From the NCBI GenBank assembly GCA_903903985.1, contig CAIVAT010000034.1:124001-188000 (forward strand): a stretch of DNA of 64,000 nt, given 5' to 3'. Made by a program: the position numbers and the translations under genes. Numbering within the stretch: the stretch's first letter is position 1; each line of letters opens with the position of its first letter. Source of the stretch: an uncultured Bacteroidales bacterium (GTDB lineage Bacteria > Bacteroidota > Bacteroidia > Bacteroidales > FEN-979). The notes beneath the pieces were generated by a model. The model was not told the origin of the DNA. It saw nothing but the letters and a program-made list of their open reading frames with translations, and did not search any database. Shown piece after piece: positions 33,428 through 44,971 of the stretch.

Positions 33428-35935
33428 TTAATTGTCTTTAAGGCAACGCAACGAAAAACCCATTGCCTTGCTGTTGGTATTCATGCCACTTGAAGAATTT
33501 TGAACATAAAAGTTCCGGCTACCACCTGACCCGTTTTGTGAACTGCTCCAATAAAATCCTTTCTGGCCAGGATCGTTTAGTAAACCATCCGAATAGTAAA
33601 TGAATCCGGCAGCATGGAGTTTTAAAACGGAGTTCCATGGATCATTCCAGTTTGTCCATCCCCCACCTGGTATAATACTCGACCATTCTGTATCAGTTGG
33701 AATTCGCCAGCCCATGCCAAGCTCAAGAGTACAAGGGTCATTGATAGCCTCCCAATCAAGGTTCTCATTGATGGCCGTTATCCAGGTTGTACCTGGGGTT
33801 CGGGTCGTTCCATTATGTTTGAACCCCTGTTTTCGGTTAAACTGCCAGTACCATCCCGCCGAAGCTTCGGTGGCATCGTCAACAGAAGTAGCCTGGTGGT
33901 CGGCGCCCAGATTGCTGGTGATCCAGCATTTGGTGGGTTCGCCGGGAATGTTTGTAACCGTGCCGTAAGTTACGGTTTTGGTTACTGGAGCTATTGTGCC
34001 TTCCAGGTGGTTAATGATGAAAGGATTACCGCATGAAAAATATGACGTATAACTTATATTGTCAATACAAACCTGACCCGACGTTGTTGATTGCTGCTTA
34101 AAATCGAGAATGAAATTTCCGGCAACATTCACAGTAACAGGTCCGGAATTTTTCACAATGCCTTGTTCACCCGATGTTGTTGCAGTATATACCAGATTGC
34201 CATTAACAAATACATTCAGAGCTACACCAGAAGAAAAAACCTGTTTATAATCGAAACTTAGTGTGCCACATCCATTGGATATAGTCCCCGATGTTACTTC
34301 AGCTGTCGGGGTGCGTCCCTTGCCAAGTGTGGGAGAAGGAGCAGCGATTACGGAATCTCCGCGACATTGGTAATATAACCATGATGATCCATCCTGACCT
34401 AAAAAGGTACCATTGCGGTAAACGTTAGTCGTTTCAAGATAATTTGTAAAGTTTTCCATTCCAGATGCGGGTGGGCAGGAAGAAGTGGTTTGTGTTAACA
34501 ACACGGGGGTGGAATTTCCACAACTATTGTATGCCCATGCATACCTCGCATAATTTGAGTTACAGGTCAGCCCGGTTTCTGTTTTTGTGGTTGTGGTGCC
34601 CATATCAGTTGCCGATGCATATTCGTCGATGGTATTCCATTTATAACCGGTTGCGCCTGGCACGGCGTTCCAGTTCCAGATAATCTGTGTTTGAGAAGGA
34701 ACATGGGCAGCAGAAGTAGGCCCATCCGGCACAGTACAGGGATTTTTAAGACAACGTGCACTATTCCCATTATTTTCATTAATGCCGTTGTCTGAGTATA
34801 CCATCGCTCCATAACTAACCAGATGCCGGTACCCAACGAGTCCCCAGGTGAACTTCGTAGAAGTCCAGAAGGTCGCACCATTGCCTAACCCGCCAAAGCC
34901 ATTGGCGGTTGAATTTAAGCCGCCAGGAAGGGCGGTATAACCCGTTTCATTTGTCGCACCTGTATTGGGACTTTGCCAATGGCTGAAACCGGTTTCTTTC
35001 AATTTTCCACCTGCAATGCTTTCTCCCCCGAGAAAGGATACAAGAGTACTCCATTCTGAATGTGTCGGAATGTGCCAACCAGAAGGGCATAGACCTGGAG
35101 CTCCGTCTGCGGTTTCATATTGCATCAATTCATTCCATTGGTACAAACCTCCGTAAACATCGCAATTCGATTCCAGATTATCATAGCAATATTTCTCAAT
35201 GATGCTGTTGTTTGTCTGTTCCTGCGTACCGTCGATCCGGGTTCCGATATTGAGGTTTTCCTTAAACCAGCACTGGGTACCAATTTGAACAGTGTTGTAG
35301 GTTTTTCCGCCATGAGTTACGGTTGGTGTACCCGGGCACGGTTGTCCCAAGGGATTGGCTTCAACCGAAACGTTAAAAGTGCAGGATGAATTGCCGTAGG
35401 TTACGTTAAATGTCGCGATTCCTGCGGTATCAGGTATACCACTTCCGTTTAATACGACAAGATGGGAACCAATAGAAGTGAAAGTTCCCATCTTTGAAAA
35501 CCGGAAACCGTTGACGGTATTGGTTGAGATATTGTACCCGCCGGCTGTGGCATTGGTCAACGTAACTGAGACGGTATTGGCAGCAGATAATGGCGTTCTC
35601 TCCATATATACACCACTGACAACCGGACCGGCACAACTGATCGTACCGAAGCTCAAACAGGGAGAGTGCCATCCATTGGCTGACCCCGCATAAAACTCAA
35701 TGCACTTCAAATCGGTGTTGTAAATGGTCAATCCCTCGGCAGGGGTTTGAATGGCATCCCGCTGGGCAGTGGTCATCCGCGGAGGTAGAAAACCTTTACT
35801 GGCTGAAGATACATCAAGCATGGCCGAATTATCCGGTACACCGGAATGGTCGTTGATGCCCACCTGGGCAATCAGTTGCAGGCCGATGAGCAGCAGCATT
35901 GCAGCCAAAACGAATGAAAATATTTTTTTTGTCAT
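33428..35935 (-). CDS. Secreted FISUMP-domain protein (835 aa), two lectin-like modules
   Basis: Signal peptide ends near residue 23 (LQLIAQ). The N-terminal module shared by three neighbouring genes follows: MLDVSSASKGFLPPRMTTAQ, then a strand-rich segment to about residue 195. A classical FISUMP (Fib_succ_major) domain spans about 205-400 (QIGTQCWFKENLNIG, LCPSGWHIPTHSEW). An Fn3-like linker spans about 405-485 and a jelly-roll-like segment 490-640 (GTISNGCGTLSFDY, CIDNISY). A second FISUMP-like module of the WYWQFNRKQG type fills 655-835 and ends in SLRCLKDN. FISUMP domains are expected to have a C-type-lectin-like fold. Surface display and ligand binding are inferred; no type IX tail is visible. 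Confidence 0.85.
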   Translation of the reverse strand: MTKKIFSFVLAAMLLLIGLQLIAQVGINDHSGVPDNSAMLDVSSASKGFLPPRMTTAQRDAIQTPAEGLTIYNTDLKCIEFYAGSANGWHSPCLSFGTISCAGPVVSGVYMERTPLSAANTVSVTLTNATAGGYNISTNTVNGFRFSKMGTFTSIGSHLVVLNGSGIPDTAGIATFNVTYGNSSCTFNVSVEANPLGQPCPGTPTVTHGGKTYNTVQIGTQCWFKENLNIGTRIDGTQEQTNNSIIEKYCYDNLESNCDVYGGLYQWNELMQYETADGAPGLCPSGWHIPTHSEWSTLVSFLGGESIAGGKLKETGFSHWQSPNTGATNETGYTALPGGLNSTANGFGGLGNGATFWTSTKFTWGLVGYRHLVSYGAMVYSDNGINENNGNSARCLKNPCTVPDGPTSAAHVPSQTQIIWNWNAVPGATGYKWNTIDEYASATDMGTTTTKTETGLTCNSNYARYAWAYNSCGNSTPVLLTQTTSSCPPASGMENFTNYLETTNVYRNGTFLGQDGSSWLYYQCRGDSVIAAPSPTLGKGRTPTAEVTSGTISNGCGTLSFDYKQVFSSGVALNVFVNGNLVYTATTSGEQGIVKNSGPVTVNVAGNFILDFKQQSTTSGQVCIDNISYTSYFSCGNPFIINHLEGTIAPVTKTVTYGTVTNIPGEPTKCWITSNLGADHQATSVDDATEASAGWYWQFNRKQGFKHNGTTRTPGTTWITAINENLDWEAINDPCTLELGMGWRIPTDTEWSSIIPGGGWTNWNDPWNSVLKLHAAGFIYYSDGLLNDPGQKGFYWSSSQNGSGGSRNFYVQNSSSGMNTNSKAMGFSLRCLKDN

Positions 35936-36064: not shown

Positions 36065-37276
36065 TTAATTGTCCTTGATGCATCGGAGGGAAAAGCCATA
36101 AGTCTTGTCAGCATTGTTAATACTGAGAAAACTGCTGCCAAAAACCAGGTAAAGGCCATTGACACTACCAGACTGCGAACCGCTCCAGTACACTCCTGTT
36201 TGGCTGCGATCGCTCAATGCCCCGTTGAGGTTAAGGAGGTAGCCGGCAGCATGAATTTTCAAACCAGCATCCCAAGGGCCATTCCAGTTTGCCCAGGCGC
36301 CACCTGCCTTAACATTGGTCCACTCTGTGGAGGAAGGAATACGCCATCCGGTACCAAGTTCACTTTTACAGGGATCGTTGGCGGGGATCCAATCTGAATC
36401 TTCATTGATGCCGGCTATGGTCCAGGTTGGAGTTAATGTTGAACCATCGTGTTTATAGCCCTGCTTGCGGTTAAACTGCCAATACCAGCCTGCAGAAGTT
36501 TCGGTGGCATCGTCAATGGCGTTGGCCTGGTGGTCGGCACCAAGGTTGCTGGTGATCCAGCATTTGGCGGGTTCGCCGGGGATGTTGGCAACCAATCCGT
36601 AAGTAACGGTTTTTGAAACCGGTGCAATGGCCCCTGCAATATGGGTGACAGTAATAGAGGAACCTGGTATCCCCGGGCAAGGCTGTCCCAATGGATTTGC
36701 AATGACCGGAACATTAAAAGTGCAGGTTGAATTGCCGTAGGTTACAGTAAACGATGAGGTTCCAGCGGTATCCGGTATCCCGCTTCCAATTAGCACAACA
36801 ACCTGGGAACCGATGGTGGTGAAGCTTCCCATTTTTGAAAACTGAAAACCGTTGACGGTATTGGTCGAAATATTGAATCCTCCGGTGGTCATGTTATTAA
36901 CCGTAACCGATACGGCGTTGGCTGCCGACAATGGCATTCCTGCCGTAAACGTGCTGTTGACGACCGGGTTGGTGCAACTGATGGTGCCAAGGCTCAAACA
37001 GGGAGCATACCAGCCGTTGGCCGCACCGGTATAGAACTCGATGCACTGTAAATCGGTGTTGTAAATGGTCAACCCCTCAGCCGGGGTTTGAATGGCATCC
37101 CGCTGTGCCGTGGTCATCCGCGGAGGCAAAAACCCTTTGCTGGCCGACGACACATCCAGGATGGCGGAATTGTCCGGTGCGCTTGAATTATCGTTAATGC
37201 CTACCTGGGCAACCAGGTGCATACTGAAGAAGAGCAGCATGGCAGCAAACACGAATGAAAATATTTTTTTTGTCAT
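36065..37276 (-). CDS. Secreted FISUMP-domain protein (403 aa), single module
   Basis: The smallest of the three paralogues. Signal peptide to about residue 23, the shared N-terminal module (VSSASKGFLPPRMTTAQRDA) nearly identical to the preceding paralogue, a strand-rich segment to about 200, then one WYWQFNRKQG-type module (about 215-403) ending SLRCIKDN. The 5' leader (ATAAAATCAAAAT and CTCCGGCAA just before the ATG) is shared with the 835-aa gene, so the two arose by duplication including regulatory DNA. The C-terminal segment (36065-36247) is rich in NNC/NNT codons at variable positions. Confidence 0.85.
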   Translation of the reverse strand: MTKKIFSFVFAAMLLFFSMHLVAQVGINDNSSAPDNSAILDVSSASKGFLPPRMTTAQRDAIQTPAEGLTIYNTDLQCIEFYTGAANGWYAPCLSLGTISCTNPVVNSTFTAGMPLSAANAVSVTVNNMTTGGFNISTNTVNGFQFSKMGSFTTIGSQVVVLIGSGIPDTAGTSSFTVTYGNSTCTFNVPVIANPLGQPCPGIPGSSITVTHIAGAIAPVSKTVTYGLVANIPGEPAKCWITSNLGADHQANAIDDATETSAGWYWQFNRKQGYKHDGSTLTPTWTIAGINEDSDWIPANDPCKSELGTGWRIPSSTEWTNVKAGGAWANWNGPWDAGLKIHAAGYLLNLNGALSDRSQTGVYWSGSQSGSVNGLYLVFGSSFLSINNADKTYGFSLRCIKDN

Positions 37277-37489: not shown

Positions 37490-37672
37490 TCAATTGTCGC
37501 GAACGCAACGGACGGAGAAGCCGAATGCCTTTTCGTTGCCGCCCATGTTGCTGTTGCTATTGTTAAAGTTCAGGTACCAGCAGAGCGTGGCATTGAGCTG
37601 CGAACTACTCCAATAGAAGCCGTCCGAGCCGCGACTGCTCTGTGAACCATCACGGCCGTACAGGTACCCGGC
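37490..37672 (-). repeat. Variable segment of module B7 (C-terminal, DGR-VR-like)
   Basis: The last 60 codons of the giant FISUMP gene. Constant residues (YWSSSQ, WYLNFN, GFSVRC) are interspersed with codons that are mostly NNC or NNT. Examples are TAC-GGC-CGT, AGC-AGT, GAC-GGC-TTC, and AAC-AAT-AGC-AAC-AGC-AAC followed by GGC-GGC-AAC. This is the composition expected if AAY codons of a template were changed at the A positions, as in DGR variable regions, which also sit at the C-terminus of lectin-fold proteins. No template copy is present in the window. Confidence 0.5.
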
Positions 37673-40600
37673 AGCATGTATTTTTAAAGCAGAATTCCAT
37701 GGGCCGTTCCAATCATTCCAGTTCCCGCTTGCATCCACATTGGTCCAATCGGTAGAGGTTGGAATGCGCCAGTTGGCGCCAAGTTCAATGGTACAAGGGT
37801 CGTTAGCGGCAACCCAATCAGAAGTTTCACTGATGCTGGTTATTGTCCACGATGGGGTTACGGTTGAGCCATCATTCTTGTATCCCTGCTTACGATTAAA
37901 CTGCCAGTACCAGCCGGCAGAGGCTTCGGTAGTGTCGTTAACTGCAGTTGCCTGGTGGGTTGCACCCAGGTTGCTGGTGATCCAGCATTTATCGGGTTCG
38001 CCGGGAATATCTCTGACAATCCCGTAGGTAACGGTTTTATCAACCGGAGCAACCAAGCCTGTCATATGGTTGACTGTAATGGAAGAATTGCATGTTACAG
38101 GACAAGACAGGGTTGTACGTTCCAGCAAAACCCGACTGGAATTCCCGCAGACATTGTAAGCCCACGCATGACGGGTGTAGGCAGTGTTGCAGGTCAGCCC
38201 GGTTTCGGTTGTGGTTGTTGCTGTGCCCATGTCTGTCGCATCAACATAATTGTTCGTGATGCCCCATTTATATCCTGTAGCACCGGGTACTGAATTCCAG
38301 CTCCAGTTGATTTGTGTTTGTGATGAGGTATGGGAACCGGAAGATGGAGATGAAGGAGGGGCGAAACATTCTTTCACACAACGGACAGAGAACCCACCAG
38401 CTTTGGAGTCGATGGTTATCCAGGGACTCCAACTGTAGAAGACCATGAACCAGCCGTAAGAGTCATCGTTCTGCGTACTACTCCAGTAGCTGCCGCCTGA
38501 GCCGCGACTGGAAAGCGAAGCATTGAAGTAGTAAATGTATCCGGCTGCATGGAGTTTTAACCCAGAGTTCCATGGGCCATCCCAGGTTGTCCAATTTCCA
38601 CTTGATTCCACGTTGTTCCATTCAGTATATGTTGGTATGTGCCAGCCAGCGCCAAGCTCCAGGGCACATGGGTCGTTGGAGGTAATCCAATCTGAATTTT
38701 CACTAATGTTGCTGACCCAAGTCATATTAGGGGTTCGAGAAGTTCCATCATGTTTGTATCCCTGCTTGCGGTTAAACTGCCAGTACCAGCCTGCCGAAGC
38801 TTCAGTAGCATCATCGACTGCAGTTGCCTGGTGGTCGGCGCCCAGGTTGCTGGTGATCCAGCATTTGGTGGGTTCGCCAGGAATATTGGTTACGGTGCCA
38901 TAGGTCACTGTCTTGGTGACAGGAGCCACCGAATCCGCCACATGGTTGATGATGATGGTTTCCATACCGGGACATGGGTAAGTCGTTTCAACAGTTGTAA
39001 AAGTGATTTCATTCCCATAACCTGTTCCTAAAACATTTGTCGCATAAGCTCGAAGGTAATAGAGCGTACCTGGTGTGAGACCGGTGATGTTGCTGACAAA
39101 CGTTCCATCTCCGATTCCATCGGTGGTACGATTGTCTGTAATTGCCGGGTTTGGTGAAGTACTCCAACAAACACCCCTTGTTGATATAGCACCCCCTCCA
39201 TCATCGGTTACATCTCCTCCAGAACTTGCAGCACTTTGCCCAATGTTTGAAACCATTGATGTGGTAACAGTGGGAATTGCGGAGGGAATCCGGTCATCTT
39301 TGAGACAGCGGACAGAGGAACCATAAGCCTTGTCCTGGCCATATCTGCTGCATTCCCAATTGGTGAAGTACAGGTAATCTCCATATGGAGCATTGGATTG
39401 CATCATACTCCAATAGGAACCGATTGAACCTCGATTGTAAAGCGAACCATCATAGTAGTATATGTACCCGGCTGCATGGAGCTTTAAAACAGAGTTCCAG
39501 GGGCCGTTCCAGTCTGTCCAGTTTCCGGAATTAATAACATTATTCCATTCAGTAAAGGTAGGAATGTGCCATCCAGTGCCAAGTTCAAGGGCACATGGAT
39601 CGTTGGTTGTTATCCAGTCAGAATTTTCAATGATATTGGTGATAATGGTCCAGGAAGGGGTAGCAGTAGAGCCATCGTGTTTATAACCTTGCTTGCGATT
39701 AAATTGCCAGTACCAACCTGCCGAGCCTTCTGTGGCATCATCAACAGATGTTGCCTGGTGGTCGGCACCCAGGTTGCTGGTGATCCAGCATTTACCGGGT
39801 TCGCCGGGAATACCTGTAACTGTTCCGTAGGCAACTGTTTTTGTAACAGGCGCTACATCTCCGGCAACATGTTTGATGGTAAATGTTCCACAATTCGGAA
39901 GACAAACAGGTGTTGATTGGGTTAAAGCAACCGGGCTGGAATTCCCGCATGAGTTGTAAGCCCACACATATCGTGTGTAACCAGAATCGCAAATTAATCC
40001 GGTTTCCAGATATCTGTTTGCAGTTCCAATGTCAATCGCTGTGCCGTAGGTAGCGCTTGTATTCCACTTATAACCGAGTGCCCCGGGCACCGTATTCCAA
40101 CTCCAGTTGATTTGTGTTTGTGCTGAGGAGTGGGTGCTGGTTGATGGAGACGATGGAGGGCCGGAACAATCTTTCACACAACGGGCGGAGAAGCCGTTCG
40201 TCTTGTAGTCGTTGGTCATCCAGGGGGCCCAACTGTATAAGTACAGGCACCAGCCCCAGGAAGTTCCGCCCTGCGCATTACTCCAGTAAGTGCCTCTTGA
40301 GCCTCGACTGTAAAGAGAACCATCATTGTTGTTCAGGAACCCGGCTGCATGGAGCTTTAAACCAGCGTTCCATGGTCCATCCCATGTTGTCCAGTTTCCA
40401 CTTGATTCTACGTTGTTCCATTCCGAATAGGTTGGTATATGCCAACCAGTACCAAGTTCAAGGCCACAGGGATCATTAGCGGTCATCCAGTCAGAAGTTT
40501 CATCGATAGTGGTGATCGTCCATGATGGAGTGATGGTTTGGCCGTCGACTTTGTATCCTTGTTTGCGGTTGAATTGCCAGTACCAGCCGGCTGAGGCTTC

Positions 40601-43600
40601 CGTGGCATCATCAACAGATGTTGCCTGATGGTCGGCGCCCAGATTGCTGGTGATCCAGCATTTGGTGGTTTCGCCGGGAATATTGGTAACGGTGCTGTAG
40701 GTCGCTGTTTTGGTGACCGGGGCAACTGAATCTGCCACATGGTTGATGGTGATGGTTTCCATCCCGGGACATGGATAAGTTGCTACAGCAGTTGTGAACG
40801 TGATTTCATCCCCGTATCCCGTTCCAAAACCATTGGTCGCATACGCCCGAAGATAATACAGTGTGTTTGGCGTGAGGCCGCTGACGTTGCTTATAAAAGT
40901 CCCATCTCCGGTTCCATCTGTGGTATGACTGTCTGTAATTGCCGGGTTTTGTGAGGTACTCCAGCATACACCTCTCGCTGATACGGCACCCCCTCCATCA
41001 TCGGTAACATTGCCTCCTGAGCTTACAGCACTTTGCCCGATGTTGGAAGCCATAGATGTGATAACAGTGGGTATTGCCGTGGGAATCCGGTCATCTCTGA
41101 GACAGCGCAATGAATATCCGCCTGCCTTTTCATTATAGCTGTTGTAAATATAACTATTGTAAAAATAAATCCCGTTGCCATAGCTGGCATTGCCTTGGGA
41201 ACCACTCCAGTAGGAGCCAGACCAACTTCGGGAATATAGATCACCATTGTAGCTGTAAATGTAACCGGCAGCATGCAGTTTTAGACCTGAGTTCCATGGA
41301 CCGTACCAGTCTGTCCAGTTTCCGGCAGTACTAACATTCGTCCATTCTATGTTAGTTGGGATCCGCCAGCCGGTGCCAAGCTCATGAAGACAAGGGTCGT
41401 TTGTTGCCTGCCAGTCAGAATTTTCGTTGATGCTGGTCATCGTCCATGATGGCGTAACGGTTGAGCCATCGTGTTTGTATCCTTGTTTGCGGTTGAACTG
41501 CCAGTACCACCCAGCCGATGCTTCGGTGGCATCATCAACGGCAATGGCCTGTTGGTCAGCGCCCAGGTTGCTGGTGATCCAGCATTTACCGGGTTCGCCG
41601 GGAATACCTTTAACCGTTCCATAGTTCACTGTTTTGGTGACTGGCGCCACCTCTCCGGCAACATGGTTGATGGTAAATGTTCCGCAATTCGGAAGACAAA
41701 CCGGGGTTGATTGGGTTAAAGCCACCGGGCTGGAATTCCCACAGGAATTATAAGCCCACACATATCGTGTGTAAGCAGAATCGCACCTTAACCCGGTTTC
41801 CAGATGGCTGGTTGCATTGCCAACATCTATTGCTGTGCTGTAATTATCTGTTGTATTCCATTTGTAACCGGGTAACCCAACGACCGTGTTCCAATTCCAA
41901 TTGATTTGTGATTGTGAAGAGGTATGGGTACCAGATGATGGAGACGATGGGGGGTTGATGCAATCTTTCACACAGCGGAGAGAGCAGCCGTAAGCCTTAC
42001 CCCATGAGGACACTGCTTCTTGTTGCCCAGTATCGAAGAACAGGTCATAGCCTTGACCAGGATTCCATTGCAAACCAATACTACTCCAGTAAATTCCAAC
42101 TACACCGCGATTGAATATAGAACCTTCACTTATGTTCAGAAACCCGGCCACATGAATTTTTAACCCAGAGTTCCATGGACCGGTAAAATCGGTCCAGTTT
42201 CCACCTGCATTCACATTGGCCCATTCGGTAACAGTTGGAATACGCCAACCATTGCCAAATTCAATACTGCAAGGGTCATTAGCAATAATCCAGTCGGAAT
42301 TTTCATCAATATTGGTGATGGTCCAGGATGGGGTAACCGTCAAGCCATCCTGCTTGTAACCTTGTTTGCGGTTAAACTGCCAGTACCAGCCTGCCGATGC
42401 TTCGGTAGCATCATCAACAGATGTTGCCTGGTGATCGGCGCCCAGGTTACTGGTGATCCAGCATTTGGCTGTTTCACCGCGAATTTTGGTGACGGTTCCA
42501 TAGTTCACTGTTTTAGTAACCGGCGCTACCTCTCCGGCCACATGATTGATGGTGATGGTTTCCATTCCGGGACATGGATACGTTGCTTCAGCAGTTGCGA
42601 ACGTGATTTTATCCCCATAGCCCGTTCCAAAACCATTGATCGCATATGCCCGTAGGTAATATGTTGTGTTTGGTATGAGGCCAGTGAGGTTACTTATATA
42701 AGTTCCAACTCCGGTTCCATCGGTTGTATGATTGTCTGTAATTACCGGGTTTTGTGTGATACTCCAGCATACACCCCGAGCCGTTACGGCACCTCCTCCA
42801 TCATTGGTAACATTGCCTCCTGAAATTGCTTCACTTTGCCCGATGTTGCAAACCACGGAGGTGGTAACAGTGGGAAATGCCGTGGGAATTCGGTCATCTC
42901 TGAGACAGCGGACAGAGAAGCCATAAATCTTATAATAGCTAGTCATATAGCTGTAGTCACTATTAAACATAAGGTACCAACCGTAGGGATCACCTTCCTG
43001 GATACAACTCCAGTAGCGGCCGGATGAGCCTCGAGTGTTCAGTGAACCATCACTGTAGAAAAGGCGCCCGGCTGCATGGAGCTTTAAACCAGAGTCCCAT
43101 GAACCATTCCAGGTTGTCCAGTTTCCACTTTCTTTTACGTTGTTCCATTCTGTGTAGGTGGGAATCCGCCAACCGGCGCCAAGTTCAAGGGCACATGGGT
43201 CGTTGTCGGTCATCCAATATGAATTTTCACTGATGCTGCTAACCCAAATCGTATTGGGAGTACGGGTAGTTCCATCATGCTTGTATCCCTGTTTACGGTT
43301 AAACTGCCAGTACCAGCCTGCCGAGGCTTCAGTAGCATCGTTAACAGCAGTGGCCTGGTGGTCGGCGCCCAGGTTGCTGGTGATCCAGCATTTACCAGGT
43401 TCGCCGGGAATACCTGTAACAGTTCCATAGGTTACTGTTTTGGTCACCGGTGCTACCTCTCCGGCAACGTGGTTGATGGTAAATGTTCCGCAATTCGGAA
43501 GACAAACAGGGGTAGATTGGGTTAAAGCAACCGGGCTGGAATTCCCGCAGGAATTGTAAGCCCACACATACCTTATATAAGCAGAATCGCACCTTAATCC

Positions 43601-44971
43601 GGTTTCCAGGAAACTGGTTGCAGTTCCTATATCAGTCGCTGTACCATAAGTAGCGATTGTATTCCACTTATAGCCAGTTGCCCCGGGAGTCGTATTCCAT
43701 ATCCAGTTGATTTGTGTTTGCGAAGAAGAATGAGCACCGGAAGCAGGAGCATTGGGAGCCATGGTACAGGTGTCTTTGAGGCAGCGGGCGCTAAATCCAG
43801 CTTCCTTTTCATGGTTATAATGCCACAAATCAGAACGAAAATTAAAAAGTTCAATTATTGCCGAACTTGTGGCAGAGGTCTCTGTAGAAGTCCTTAAGTA
43901 ACTTGTGTATCCCATATCGAGAAAAAATAGGCCATTGCTGGTCCGAGCACCACCAGGCAGGCATGTAAATCCACTTTCGTTGGTGGCTCCTGTATTGGGG
44001 CTTTGCCAATGATTATAACCGATCTCCTTCATTTTTCCTCCTGCCACTGATGCTCCACCCAAATAATCCGCAAGTACAGACCATTCGCCATCCGATGGAA
44101 TGTGCCAACCGGAGGGACAGATTCCCTGGACTCCTGCTGTGGTTAAATATTGCATCATCTCATTCCATTGGTACAATCCTCCATAGATATCGCAGTTTGA
44201 TTCAAGATTGTTGTAACAGTATTTTTCGATCACATTGTTGTTTGTCTGTTCCTGCGAGCCATCGATCCGCGAACCGATGTTGATATTTTCCTTAAACCAG
44301 CATTGGTCTCCGATTTCAACAGTATGGTAGGTTTTCCCGCCGTATGTAAATGTGGGCAATCCCGGGCACGGATGTCCATATTGATTGGTAACGACAGGGA
44401 TGTCAAAAGTGCACGTTGAATTGGCATACATGACAGTAAAAGAAGTTGTGCCCGTTTCGGTTGGGGTGCCGGTGCCGTTCAGTTCGATGGTCTGTGTTCC
44501 GATGGTAGTGAATGTTCCCGTTTTTGAAAAACGGAAGCCGTTGACGGTATTGGTTGAGATATTGTACCCGCCGGTGTTCATGTTGTTGACGGTAACTGTT
44601 ACCGTATTGGAAGCGGTCAAGGCTGTTTCAACCATGTAGGTGCCATTGACAACCGGGTTGGAACAACTGATGGTTCCAAAACTCATGCAAGGACAGCGCC
44701 AGCCATTGACAGGCCCGGAATAAAACATGAGGCACTTCACATCGGTGTTGTAAATGGTCAATCCCACGGCCGGGTTTTGAATGGCATCCCGCTGGGCGGT
44801 GGTCATGCGCGGAGGCAAAAACCCTTGATTGGCTGAAGAGACATCAAGCATCGCTGAATGGTCAGGCGCGATGGAATCTTTGCTGATGCTTACCTGGGCA
44901 ACCATTTGCATGCTGATAAACATCAACATTGCTGCAAATACACTTGACTGTAGTGTTTTTATCATAACCAC
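37490..44971 (-). CDS. Giant secreted multi-FISUMP protein (2493 aa), eight lectin-like modules
   Basis: Signal peptide ends near residue 25 (MQMVAQ). After the shared N-terminal module (NQGFLPPRMTTAQRDA) comes one classical FISUMP domain (A; KTYHTVEIGDQCWFKENINI, about 210-405). Seven WYWQFNRKQG-type modules (B1-B7) follow, joined alternately by two Fn3-like linkers. L1 carries YVWAYNSCGNSSPVALTQ; L2 carries RGVCWS, then GLTPNTLYYLRAYATNGFG. The order is A-L1-B1-L2-B2-L1-B3-L2-B4-L1-B5-L2-B6-L1-B7, so B-L2-B-L1 recurs every 1797-1803 bp. Each B module keeps a constant core (KCWITSNLGADHQA, WRIPT, LKLHAAG, SVRC) and a hypervariable segment of about 50 residues. The likely role is an extracellular adhesin or receptor; function is not established. 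Confidence 0.88.
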   Translation of the reverse strand: MVMIKTLQSSVFAAMLMFISMQMVAQVSISKDSIAPDHSAMLDVSSANQGFLPPRMTTAQRDAIQNPAVGLTIYNTDVKCLMFYSGPVNGWRCPCMSFGTISCSNPVVNGTYMVETALTASNTVTVTVNNMNTGGYNISTNTVNGFRFSKTGTFTTIGTQTIELNGTGTPTETGTTSFTVMYANSTCTFDIPVVTNQYGHPCPGLPTFTYGGKTYHTVEIGDQCWFKENINIGSRIDGSQEQTNNNVIEKYCYNNLESNCDIYGGLYQWNEMMQYLTTAGVQGICPSGWHIPSDGEWSVLADYLGGASVAGGKMKEIGYNHWQSPNTGATNESGFTCLPGGARTSNGLFFLDMGYTSYLRTSTETSATSSAIIELFNFRSDLWHYNHEKEAGFSARCLKDTCTMAPNAPASGAHSSSQTQINWIWNTTPGATGYKWNTIATYGTATDIGTATSFLETGLRCDSAYIRYVWAYNSCGNSSPVALTQSTPVCLPNCGTFTINHVAGEVAPVTKTVTYGTVTGIPGEPGKCWITSNLGADHQATAVNDATEASAGWYWQFNRKQGYKHDGTTRTPNTIWVSSISENSYWMTDNDPCALELGAGWRIPTYTEWNNVKESGNWTTWNGSWDSGLKLHAAGRLFYSDGSLNTRGSSGRYWSCIQEGDPYGWYLMFNSDYSYMTSYYKIYGFSVRCLRDDRIPTAFPTVTTSVVCNIGQSEAISGGNVTNDGGGAVTARGVCWSITQNPVITDNHTTDGTGVGTYISNLTGLIPNTTYYLRAYAINGFGTGYGDKITFATAEATYPCPGMETITINHVAGEVAPVTKTVNYGTVTKIRGETAKCWITSNLGADHQATSVDDATEASAGWYWQFNRKQGYKQDGLTVTPSWTITNIDENSDWIIANDPCSIEFGNGWRIPTVTEWANVNAGGNWTDFTGPWNSGLKIHVAGFLNISEGSIFNRGVVGIYWSSIGLQWNPGQGYDLFFDTGQQEAVSSWGKAYGCSLRCVKDCINPPSSPSSGTHTSSQSQINWNWNTVVGLPGYKWNTTDNYSTAIDVGNATSHLETGLRCDSAYTRYVWAYNSCGNSSPVALTQSTPVCLPNCGTFTINHVAGEVAPVTKTVNYGTVKGIPGEPGKCWITSNLGADQQAIAVDDATEASAGWYWQFNRKQGYKHDGSTVTPSWTMTSINENSDWQATNDPCLHELGTGWRIPTNIEWTNVSTAGNWTDWYGPWNSGLKLHAAGYIYSYNGDLYSRSWSGSYWSGSQGNASYGNGIYFYNSYIYNSYNEKAGGYSLRCLRDDRIPTAIPTVITSMASNIGQSAVSSGGNVTDDGGGAVSARGVCWSTSQNPAITDSHTTDGTGDGTFISNVSGLTPNTLYYLRAYATNGFGTGYGDEITFTTAVATYPCPGMETITINHVADSVAPVTKTATYSTVTNIPGETTKCWITSNLGADHQATSVDDATEASAGWYWQFNRKQGYKVDGQTITPSWTITTIDETSDWMTANDPCGLELGTGWHIPTYSEWNNVESSGNWTTWDGPWNAGLKLHAAGFLNNNDGSLYSRGSRGTYWSNAQGGTSWGWCLYLYSWAPWMTNDYKTNGFSARCVKDCSGPPSSPSTSTHSSAQTQINWSWNTVPGALGYKWNTSATYGTAIDIGTANRYLETGLICDSGYTRYVWAYNSCGNSSPVALTQSTPVCLPNCGTFTIKHVAGDVAPVTKTVAYGTVTGIPGEPGKCWITSNLGADHQATSVDDATEGSAGWYWQFNRKQGYKHDGSTATPSWTIITNIIENSDWITTNDPCALELGTGWHIPTFTEWNNVINSGNWTDWNGPWNSVLKLHAAGYIYYYDGSLYNRGSIGSYWSMMQSNAPYGDYLYFTNWECSRYGQDKAYGSSVRCLKDDRIPSAIPTVTTSMVSNIGQSAASSGGDVTDDGGGAISTRGVCWSTSPNPAITDNRTTDGIGDGTFVSNITGLTPGTLYYLRAYATNVLGTGYGNEITFTTVETTYPCPGMETIIINHVADSVAPVTKTVTYGTVTNIPGEPTKCWITSNLGADHQATAVDDATEASAGWYWQFNRKQGYKHDGTSRTPNMTWVSNISENSDWITSNDPCALELGAGWHIPTYTEWNNVESSGNWTTWDGPWNSGLKLHAAGYIYYFNASLSSRGSGGSYWSSTQNDDSYGWFMVFYSWSPWITIDSKAGGFSVRCVKECFAPPSSPSSGSHTSSQTQINWSWNSVPGATGYKWGITNNYVDATDMGTATTTTETGLTCNTAYTRHAWAYNVCGNSSRVLLERTTLSCPVTCNSSITVNHMTGLVAPVDKTVTYGIVRDIPGEPDKCWITSNLGATHQATAVNDTTEASAGWYWQFNRKQGYKNDGSTVTPSWTITSISETSDWVAANDPCTIELGANWRIPTSTDWTNVDASGNWNDWNGPWNSALKIHAAGYLYGRDGSQSSRGSDGFYWSSSQLNATLCWYLNFNNSNSNMGGNEKAFGFSVRCVRDN
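38375..38545 (-). repeat. Variable segment of module B6
   Basis: Corresponds to B7's variable segment. Its frame reads TAC-TAC-TTC-AAT, then TCC-AGT-CGC, AGT-AGT and AAC-GAT-GAC at positions that differ in other modules. It resembles B4 more than B7 (shared SW-PW stretch), so segments may have been exchanged between alternate modules. Confidence 0.5.
39300..39472 (-). repeat. Variable segment of module B5
   Basis: Equivalent segment. It reads TAC-TAT-GAT-GGT and TAC-AAT-CGA where B7 has GGC-CGT-GAT-GGT and AGC-AGT-CGC: the first two codon bases differ and the third is kept. Confidence 0.5.
40177..40345 (-). repeat. Variable segment of module B4
   Basis: Equivalent segment. It reads AAC-AAT-GAT-GGT and TAC-AGT-CGA at the columns described for B5. 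The AAC-AAT pair is what an unmutated adenine-rich template would show. Confidence 0.5.
41098..41269 (-). repeat. Variable segment of module B3
   Basis: Equivalent segment with a Tyr/Asn/Ser-rich stretch (YFYNSYIYNSYNEKAGGYS), coded mainly by TAY, AAY and AGY codons. Alignment to the others is less clean at the NNC-NNT columns. Confidence 0.45.
41972..42148 (-). repeat. Variable segment of module B2
   Basis: Equivalent segment but the most divergent (GIYWSSIGLQWNPGQGYDLF). It shows little of the NNC/NNT pattern, so it may be an old, drifted copy. Confidence 0.45.
42899..43072 (-). repeat. Variable segment of module B1
   Basis: Equivalent segment. It reads TAC-AGT-GAT-GGT and AAC-ACT-CGA at the diagnostic columns, then AGT-TGT where B7 has AGT-AGT and B4 AGT-AAT. 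Third bases are shared; first and second bases differ. Confidence 0.5.

Follow-up and report, generated by a model that had tools for sequence, protein, structure and literature searches.

In Treponema denticola, one core cassette of a diversity-generating retroelement (DGR) is accompanied by extra targets elsewhere, and some isolates carry targets but neither reverse transcriptase (RT) nor template (PMC4891356). In human microbiomes, DUF1566 and Fib_succ_major, two families that share similarity, have been described as DGR targets (PMC4159848), and several variable repeats within one open reading frame (ORF) are also on record, for example in a large adhesin of Pseudomonas costantinii that has few A-to-N changes and other substitutions instead (PMC6642488). 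Surveys that rely on an RT plus a nearby repeat miss remote targets (PMC8144416). Here we analyzed a 64,000-nucleotide stretch (the window) of an uncultured Bacteroidales bacterium from a lake (assembly GCA_903903985.1, contig CAIVAT010000034.1, positions 124,001 to 188,000). Its minus strand carries three neighbouring genes with secreted-looking products, g1, g2 and g3, which contain modules resembling the Lcl_C and FISUMP domain families (B modules); we take DUF1566 to be the former name of Lcl_C. Our analysis indicates that the variable ends of at least three of the seven B modules of g1, namely B7, B4 and B6, were very probably produced long ago by a DGR, which their genome apparently no longer has.

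The module family is a DGR target in related genomes. B modules were present in 29 of 120 relatives (E<=1e-20), with some copies adjoining RTs; the RT matches beside modules were checked for DGR motifs on the 14 contigs that were fetched. DGR cassettes with a B-module target were found at L107 (genome G013) and L111 (G016), both of the same genus as the window, and at L108 (G088), from another family of the order. In each, the target has a B module at its end, and the variable repeat forms the end of the last B module; downstream lie the template repeat, contained in a small ORF, and the Avd-like and RT frames, and an accessory ORF is also part of the cassette. Between template and variable repeat there are 20, 20 and 28 adenine mismatches in L107, L111 and L108, respectively. 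The non-A mismatches number six per cassette and all lie at both ends of the extended alignment, so that over the 60 codons compared none occurs (0/67 + 0/57, 0/68 + 0/57 and 0/63 + 0/53). The RTs of L107 and L111 carry PIGNLTSQL and YVDD, and the Avd of L107, the cassette on which the Avd/RT family scan was performed, passes PF22296 (1.1e-14). With target, template, Avd, RT and adenine-only mismatches, L107 and L111 are complete DGRs of congeners. The RT frame of L108 is short (221 amino acids (aa), with an Avd-like start), and its RVT_1 match is partial and weak. Strong matches to the cassette RT were obtained in 5 of the 19 genomes of the genus, the own genome of the window being counted: G013, G016, G010 (with one stop), G001 and G004. 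RT fragments were detected in G007 and G017; the RTs matched in G008 and G015 are weaker and more distantly related.

A conserved ORF of 168-192 aa lies between target and template in all three cassettes (L107:3871-4446, L111:4556-5095, L108:6914-7417) and also occurs in G004 (C302:117-638). The L107 and L108 versions are 46% identical. The L107 ORF had no match in Pfam, NCBIfam or the PDB, and PHROGs returned a weak hit for L108 only (E 0.0086). The ORF possibly encodes an undescribed DGR accessory protein.

The C-terminal module of g1, B7, was compared with the template of G016. Adenines at codon positions 1 and 2 were changed at 22 of 52 sites (0.42), in contrast to 6 of 68 non-A sites (0.09), and third bases differed in 9 of 60 codons (0.15). 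In the core of B7, third bases differ from the nearest congener target at 70 of 132 codons, and the step between core and variable part is significant (p=3e-7). When the module was divided into blocks, about half of the third bases were mismatched up to the template boundary, after which the counts were 2/18, 2/16, 4/17 and 3/7. At the 17 AAC or AAT (AAY) codons of the template, the mismatch of B7 was 0.59/0.47/0.06 at positions 1/2/3, and the two RT-adjacent targets gave 0.65/0.38/0.00 over 34 such codons. The base spectrum at the adenine sites of these codons was A.47 G.29 T.18 C.06 for B7 and A.49 G.26 T.19 C.06 for the RT-adjacent targets. A step is also seen within the own genome alone: B7 and another of its modules, C37_25814, differ at 76 of 132 third bases in the core and at 15 of 60 in the variable part (p=2e-5, uncorrected, for the best of 325 pairs).

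All nine B modules of the window (192-195 aa) were aligned codon by codon, and the third-base mismatch of each variable segment to the congener templates was determined over 60 codons. The genes, domains and segments, all on the minus strand, are as follows.

37490-44971, minus strand: gene g1, 2493 aa, with a signal-like N-terminus (judged by eye) and a single FISUMP domain; its seven B modules are Lcl_C/FISUMP-like.
43775-44320, minus strand: the FISUMP domain proper of g1, aa 218-399 (PF09603, 2e-36).
42896-43075, minus strand: variable segment of B1; mismatch 0.38, core 0.49; step non-significant.
41963-42151, minus strand: variable segment of B2, with two small insertions; mismatch 0.47-0.50; step non-significant.
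41093-41272, minus strand: variable segment of B3; mismatch 0.52-0.55, core 0.51; no patch of third-base match.
40169-40348, minus strand: variable segment of B4; mismatch 0.25-0.28, core 0.56; p=5e-5 to 3e-4.
39296-39475, minus strand: variable segment of B5; weak residual match, 0.43-0.47 against 0.57; p=0.05 to 0.12.
38369-38548, minus strand: variable segment of B6; mismatch 0.28-0.30, core 0.52; p=0.002 to 0.0035.
37496-38071, minus strand: module B7, C-terminal in g1.
37496-37675, minus strand: variable segment of B7; mismatch 0.15-0.18 across templates, other values as given above.
36065-37276, minus strand: gene g2, 403 aa, with a single B module at 36071-36646 and its variable segment at 36071-36250; mismatch 0.47; no patch.
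33428-35935, minus strand: gene g3, 835 aa; contains a FISUMP domain plus a single B module at 33434-34012, variable segment at 33434-33613; mismatch 0.52-0.55; no patch.

The core/variable step of B4 and B6 survived correction for the nine window modules (p=5e-5 and 0.002), and no significant step was found in B1, B2, B3, B5, g2 or g3. Permutation of third bases over all codons gave p<=0.003 in all nine modules, a result that codon families and ancestry can explain. A stricter permutation, limited to codons that end in C or T in both sequences, separated B7 and B6 (p=0.0002 each) and B4 (0.002) from B5, B2 and B1 (0.007-0.02) and from B3, g2 and g3 (>=0.05). An earlier note on this DNA, whose coordinates were correct, had proposed that the seven modules of g1 carry DGR-like diversification at adenine sites. 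The proposal is largely right, although it can be seen to be so only with a template from elsewhere: the family has turned out to be a congener DGR target, and an excess of changes at adenines of the congener template is found in B7 and, more weakly, in B4 and B6. The note had suggested testing inferred template adenines codon by codon in the nine segments. For all seven modules the proposal is not supported, the signature being weak in B1, B2 and B5 and lacking in B3.

The same pattern was obtained with a larger set of 94 modules from eight genomes, which comprised the 26 full B modules of the own genome and 68 of the 78 loci given from seven congeners, the congener modules having been fetched in part; the other 10 loci failed the motif/frame filter, and L158 was retained despite an in-frame stop (codon read as X). 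Regression to zero third-base mismatch gave an intercept of 0.41+-0.018 at A sites, compared with 0.05+-0.012 at other bases of positions 1 and 2. Within the 26 own-genome modules, the intercepts were 0.41+-0.03 and 0.05+-0.02, respectively.

These results bear on a rival explanation without reverse transcription: ordinary duplication, tandem and dispersed, combined with diversifying selection on the loops that face the ligand. The earlier note had named the tandem form of it as an alternative. Duplication with selection leaves unexplained why third-base mismatch in B7, B4 and B6 drops from about half to 0.15-0.30 at the start of the congener template, why the base spectrum at adenine sites equals that of RT-adjacent targets, and why A sites are changed at 0.41 when third-base change is zero. 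The boundary step and the intercept weigh strongly against it. What speaks for duplication and selection is that the seven modules compared among themselves lack third-base conservation, that a test on single-adenine codons was flat (both described below) and that no DGR part was found in the assembly; taking the evidence together, we regard this explanation as highly improbable.

The earlier note had observed that variable columns of the seven modules keep the third codon base while the first two change, and had quoted codon pairs before GAT-GGT and before CGN, all derivable from AAC-AAT by changes at adenines. All nine quoted pairs are present; they were, however, a selection, with B2, B3 and B6 omitted from the first set and B2 and B3 from the second. 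The omitted first pairs are ATA-AGT (B2), AGC-TAC (B3) and TAC-TTC (B6), left out since GAT-GGT is absent after them, and the omitted second pairs are TTC-AAT in B2, which fits, and TAT-TCC in B3, which does not. As a general rule across the seven modules, conservation of the third base fails: over 25 variable-region columns with at least four residues, mean pairwise identity was 0.34/0.40/0.43 at positions 1/2/3, compared with 0.47 at fourfold sites (28 amino-acid-invariant core sites). Adenine and thymine occurred about equally often in variable nucleotide columns (0.72 vs 0.72; 0.89 vs 0.86 in columns with at least three bases), and A was the commonest base (0.36) at three-state positions 1 and 2. 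Testing third-base conservation and adenine content inside the window therefore gave no signal and, on its own, would have counted against a DGR; only a template from outside the window corrected the misleading picture. Third-base conservation shows up only in comparison with the right template, and even then is clear in some modules only. The starting pair inferred in the note, AAC-AAT, was correct before CGC in the four templates read from the genus but wrong before GAT-GGT, where the templates read AAC-AGC (G013, G016 and G001) or AAC-ACC (G004). The G088 template has AAC-AAC, preceding AGG.

We then consider the own genome, an assembly that is 87% complete in 195 contigs and contains the 26 full B modules on 12 contigs. 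A module profile search gave 46 matches at E<=0.01, and apart from the 26 modules these comprised 20 weaker ones, all ordinary FISUMP-like ends, whose Asn content is 2-18%, in contrast to 28-33% in the templates. The DGR system that the earlier note had suggested looking for was not found here: searches for a DGR RT, Avd, the accessory gene and a template were all negative in this 87%-complete assembly. The only RVT_1 match was the RT/maturase ORF of a group II intron (L001, on G000:C42), ruled out as a DGR RT by two intron RNA matches beside it, and the congener DGR RT had no match at 1e-10. The G013 template DNA gave 24 matches at E<=10, none of them a template; 16 were the modules themselves and 8 were matches of 15-26 bases (E 0.46-5.6). 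Congener Avd had no match at 1e-5, compared with matches in 6 of the 19 genus genomes, and PF22296 had none at 0.01, a search in which no control genome gave a match either. The congener accessory ORF, present in 4 of the 19 genus genomes, was not found. A RadC gene next to the G013 cassette was considered as an anchor for an empty site; it is multicopy, with eight matches in the own genome, and was unusable.

A complete DGR that is unassembled or unbinned, with the window modules still serving as its targets, would account for these negative searches. The completeness and fragmentation of the assembly leave room for it, and the cassette, or its RT part, sits on short contigs in G013 (6.8 kb), G001 (9.6 kb) and G004 (5.1 kb), compared with 30 kb in G016, and so may drop from a bin. 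Yet even B7, the module closest to a template, has changed at 6 of 68 non-A sites of positions 1 and 2 and at 9 of 60 third bases, whereas RT-adjacent targets have no non-A changes, and the more complete, module-rich congeners G018, G009, G014 and G002 (at least 12 modules each) are likewise without a cassette RT at 1e-10. We therefore consider a running but unseen DGR improbable, and loss of the system from the lineage would be the better account.

Several observations weigh against reading B7, B4 and B6 as DGR products. Codons with an adenine at only one of positions 1 and 2 did not show the expected contrast: 4/16 vs 2/16 in B7 (p=0.33), 13/48 vs 12/48 in B4, B6 and B7 together, 34/142 vs 37/142 in the nine young modules, and 109/411 vs 124/411 in all 26. 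Even the two RT-adjacent targets give no more than 3/32 vs 0/32 here, so that the power of this test is low. No patch was found in B3, g2 or g3, and the regression compared every module with whichever of five templates was nearest to it. Templates are highly conserved between species of the genus, with 2-6 of 60 third bases differing among G013, G016, G001 (L185) and G004 (L225), and a third-base match therefore cannot date the writing; their neighbours are less conserved, with third-base differences of 0.43 for the RT (G013-G016), 0.47 for Avd and 0.23 for the accessory ORF. Selection on ligand-facing residues is expected under any model. As no DGR part was found in the assembly, nothing shows the system running in the own genome. 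Lastly, some adenine-site states of B7 recur in G013_L149 (p=0.009), the G013 target (0.03), C166_22992 (0.03) and the G016 target (0.04), as would fit a degree of copying or shared selection.

This sharing of states bears on a further alternative, in which a DGR wrote the segments elsewhere, in a cassette-borne target, and gene conversion or recombination rather than retrohoming carried them into B7, B4 and B6. Among 66 pairs, eight shared adenine-site states at p<0.01 (uncorrected), including B4-B6 (p=0.001) and C37_26774-C90_9884 (p=0.0002), as copying would predict. Moreover, zero non-A mismatch is confined, among the fetched modules of G013 and G016, to the RT-adjacent one, and the single such module of G001 adjoins a fragment of the accessory gene; the modules next in rank have third-base mismatches of 0.08, 0.22 and 0.12, so that current writing in trans is not seen. 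However, copies of one written segment should share adenine states, and B7 looks independent of most young modules of its genome: its sharing with B4, B6, C37_25814, C37_26774, C8_6083 and C90_9884 was not above chance (p 0.29 to 0.96), C166_22992 being the exception. We consider transfer by gene conversion or recombination unlikely, and writing in place would better suit the state of B7.

Given these comparisons, we propose that the B modules form a C-type-lectin-like (Lcl_C/FISUMP-like) family that serves as a DGR target in this Bacteroidales genus. The C-terminal ~180 nucleotides of some modules would have been written in an ancestor from a template very like those of G013, G016, G001 and G004, by mutagenic reverse transcription that randomised positions 1 and 2 of the template AAC and AAT codons while third bases stayed as in the template. 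B7, nearest to the template, B4 and B6 would retain this footprint; B1, B2, B3, B5 and the modules of g2 and g3 may have drifted too far or may never have had it. Later change would have come from duplication, as the shared adenine-site states of B4 and B6 suggest, and from drift, and the DGR would either have been lost from the lineage or lie in the missing part of the assembly. More tentatively, and at somewhat less than an even chance, one DGR cassette per lineage may act as writer for a dispersed archive of lectin modules (~25 per genome, internal tandem modules included), occasionally rewriting the last 180 nucleotides of a remote module that is then frozen, with writer-less genomes keeping a graded fossil record.

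The modules may bind ligands. An AlphaFold2 model of B7 built from 72 sequences (63 of 81 further loci and the nine window modules) had a predicted local distance difference test score (pLDDT) of 82.8 and a predicted template-modelling score of 0.83; a first model from nine sequences (pLDDT 37) was discarded. The best Foldseek match was the C-terminal domain of Legionella Lcl (PDB 8q4e; E 3.5e-3, probability 1.00, template-modelling score 0.42 by target), which was also the only PDB profile match (E 0.71). C-type-lectin-like proteins came next; scores were modest throughout, with no hit at E<=0.001. By hand count, the template AAY codons correspond to B7 residues 138, 139, 145, 146, 150, 152, 159, 163, 166, 168, 170, 173, 175 and 177-180, which belong to or flank the final strands of the model and often alternate along the chain, a spacing that would be expected for one face of a sheet.

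At the level of domain families, the B modules of g1, g2 and g3 merely graze FISUMP and Lcl_C. With cut-offs scored on the whole proteins rather than module by module, one stretch each in g1 (the N-terminal domain) and g3 passed for FISUMP, and TIGR02145 matched the g1 domain at 1.5e-56 over aa 212-400. In g2, whose sole such domain is a B module, FISUMP scored 24 bits against a cut-off of 41.65, and no Pfam family was assigned.

Other DGR-like loci were also encountered. G088 has a second DGR, L114 (G088:C101), whose target is truly FISUMP-like; its repeats differ at 46 adenines, and the other mismatches, 6 of 131, lie at the extension ends. The FISUMP domains of g1 and g3 were examined as possible products of this FISUMP-type DGR and showed no third-base match to the L114 template: in g1 and g3, respectively, third bases differed at 36/58 and 35/58, adenine sites at 34/63 and 39/63, and other bases of positions 1 and 2 at 16/63 and 23/63. 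L120 (G015:C211) is DGR-like: one template-like repeat and two variable repeats, with 21 and 19 mismatches at adenines, precede an RT with PIGNYLSQ and YADD. A second DGR-type RT (PIGNLTSQI, YVDD) lies at L111:182-1405, 0.9 kb past the first, and its own target was not seen at that locus. Scanning 81 further loci for template/variable pairs listed seven, of which L230 and L253, the G016 and G013 cassettes again, were the only ones to combine a pair with zero non-A mismatch and a DGR-RT motif; in L227, L254, L261, L273 and L294, the pairs show 2-3 non-A mismatches per 80 bases, and an RT motif is lacking. A B module 67% identical to B7 occurs at L305 (IMGVR_UViG_3300050030_000022), on a 73-kb contig classed as viral; the pair scan of two viral loci (L305 and L306) found none.

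The approach used here suggests that variable repeats can be recognised without a DGR RT in the genome, by the third-base step at the boundary of the relatives' template. Past DGR products can thereby be counted and followed, and one can ask whether hypermutated binding modules persist as a standing repertoire. Among the papers listed in our searches on DGRs and their FISUMP/DUF1566 or remote targets, most of them judged by listing alone, we found none on the modules of this genus, and as far as we searched, what is new is the scale, the arrangement of modules in tandem and a graded footprint visible where no DGR RT was found. A close parallel is Treponema denticola, in which targets are likewise kept where RT and template are not found; unlike the situation described there, the genomes studied here hold up to ~25 modules each, up to seven in tandem in one protein, with a graded decay of third-base match (PMC4891356). 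The same two domain families serve as targets in human microbiomes, but those described are found in cassettes with template and RT, whereas the window modules stand without one and score below the Pfam and NCBIfam cut-offs (PMC4159848). Like the Pseudomonas costantinii adhesin, g1 has several variable repeats in one large surface protein; in contrast to it, the adenine-site bias is clear in B7, yet the template was not found in the genome (PMC6642488). Nanoarchaeal DGR fragments are archaeal and have targets without known homologues (PMC4372165), in contrast to the bacterial C-type-lectin-like module described here. Legionella Lcl shares a likeness of fold with the B7 model, and no DGR is implied for Lcl in the material examined.

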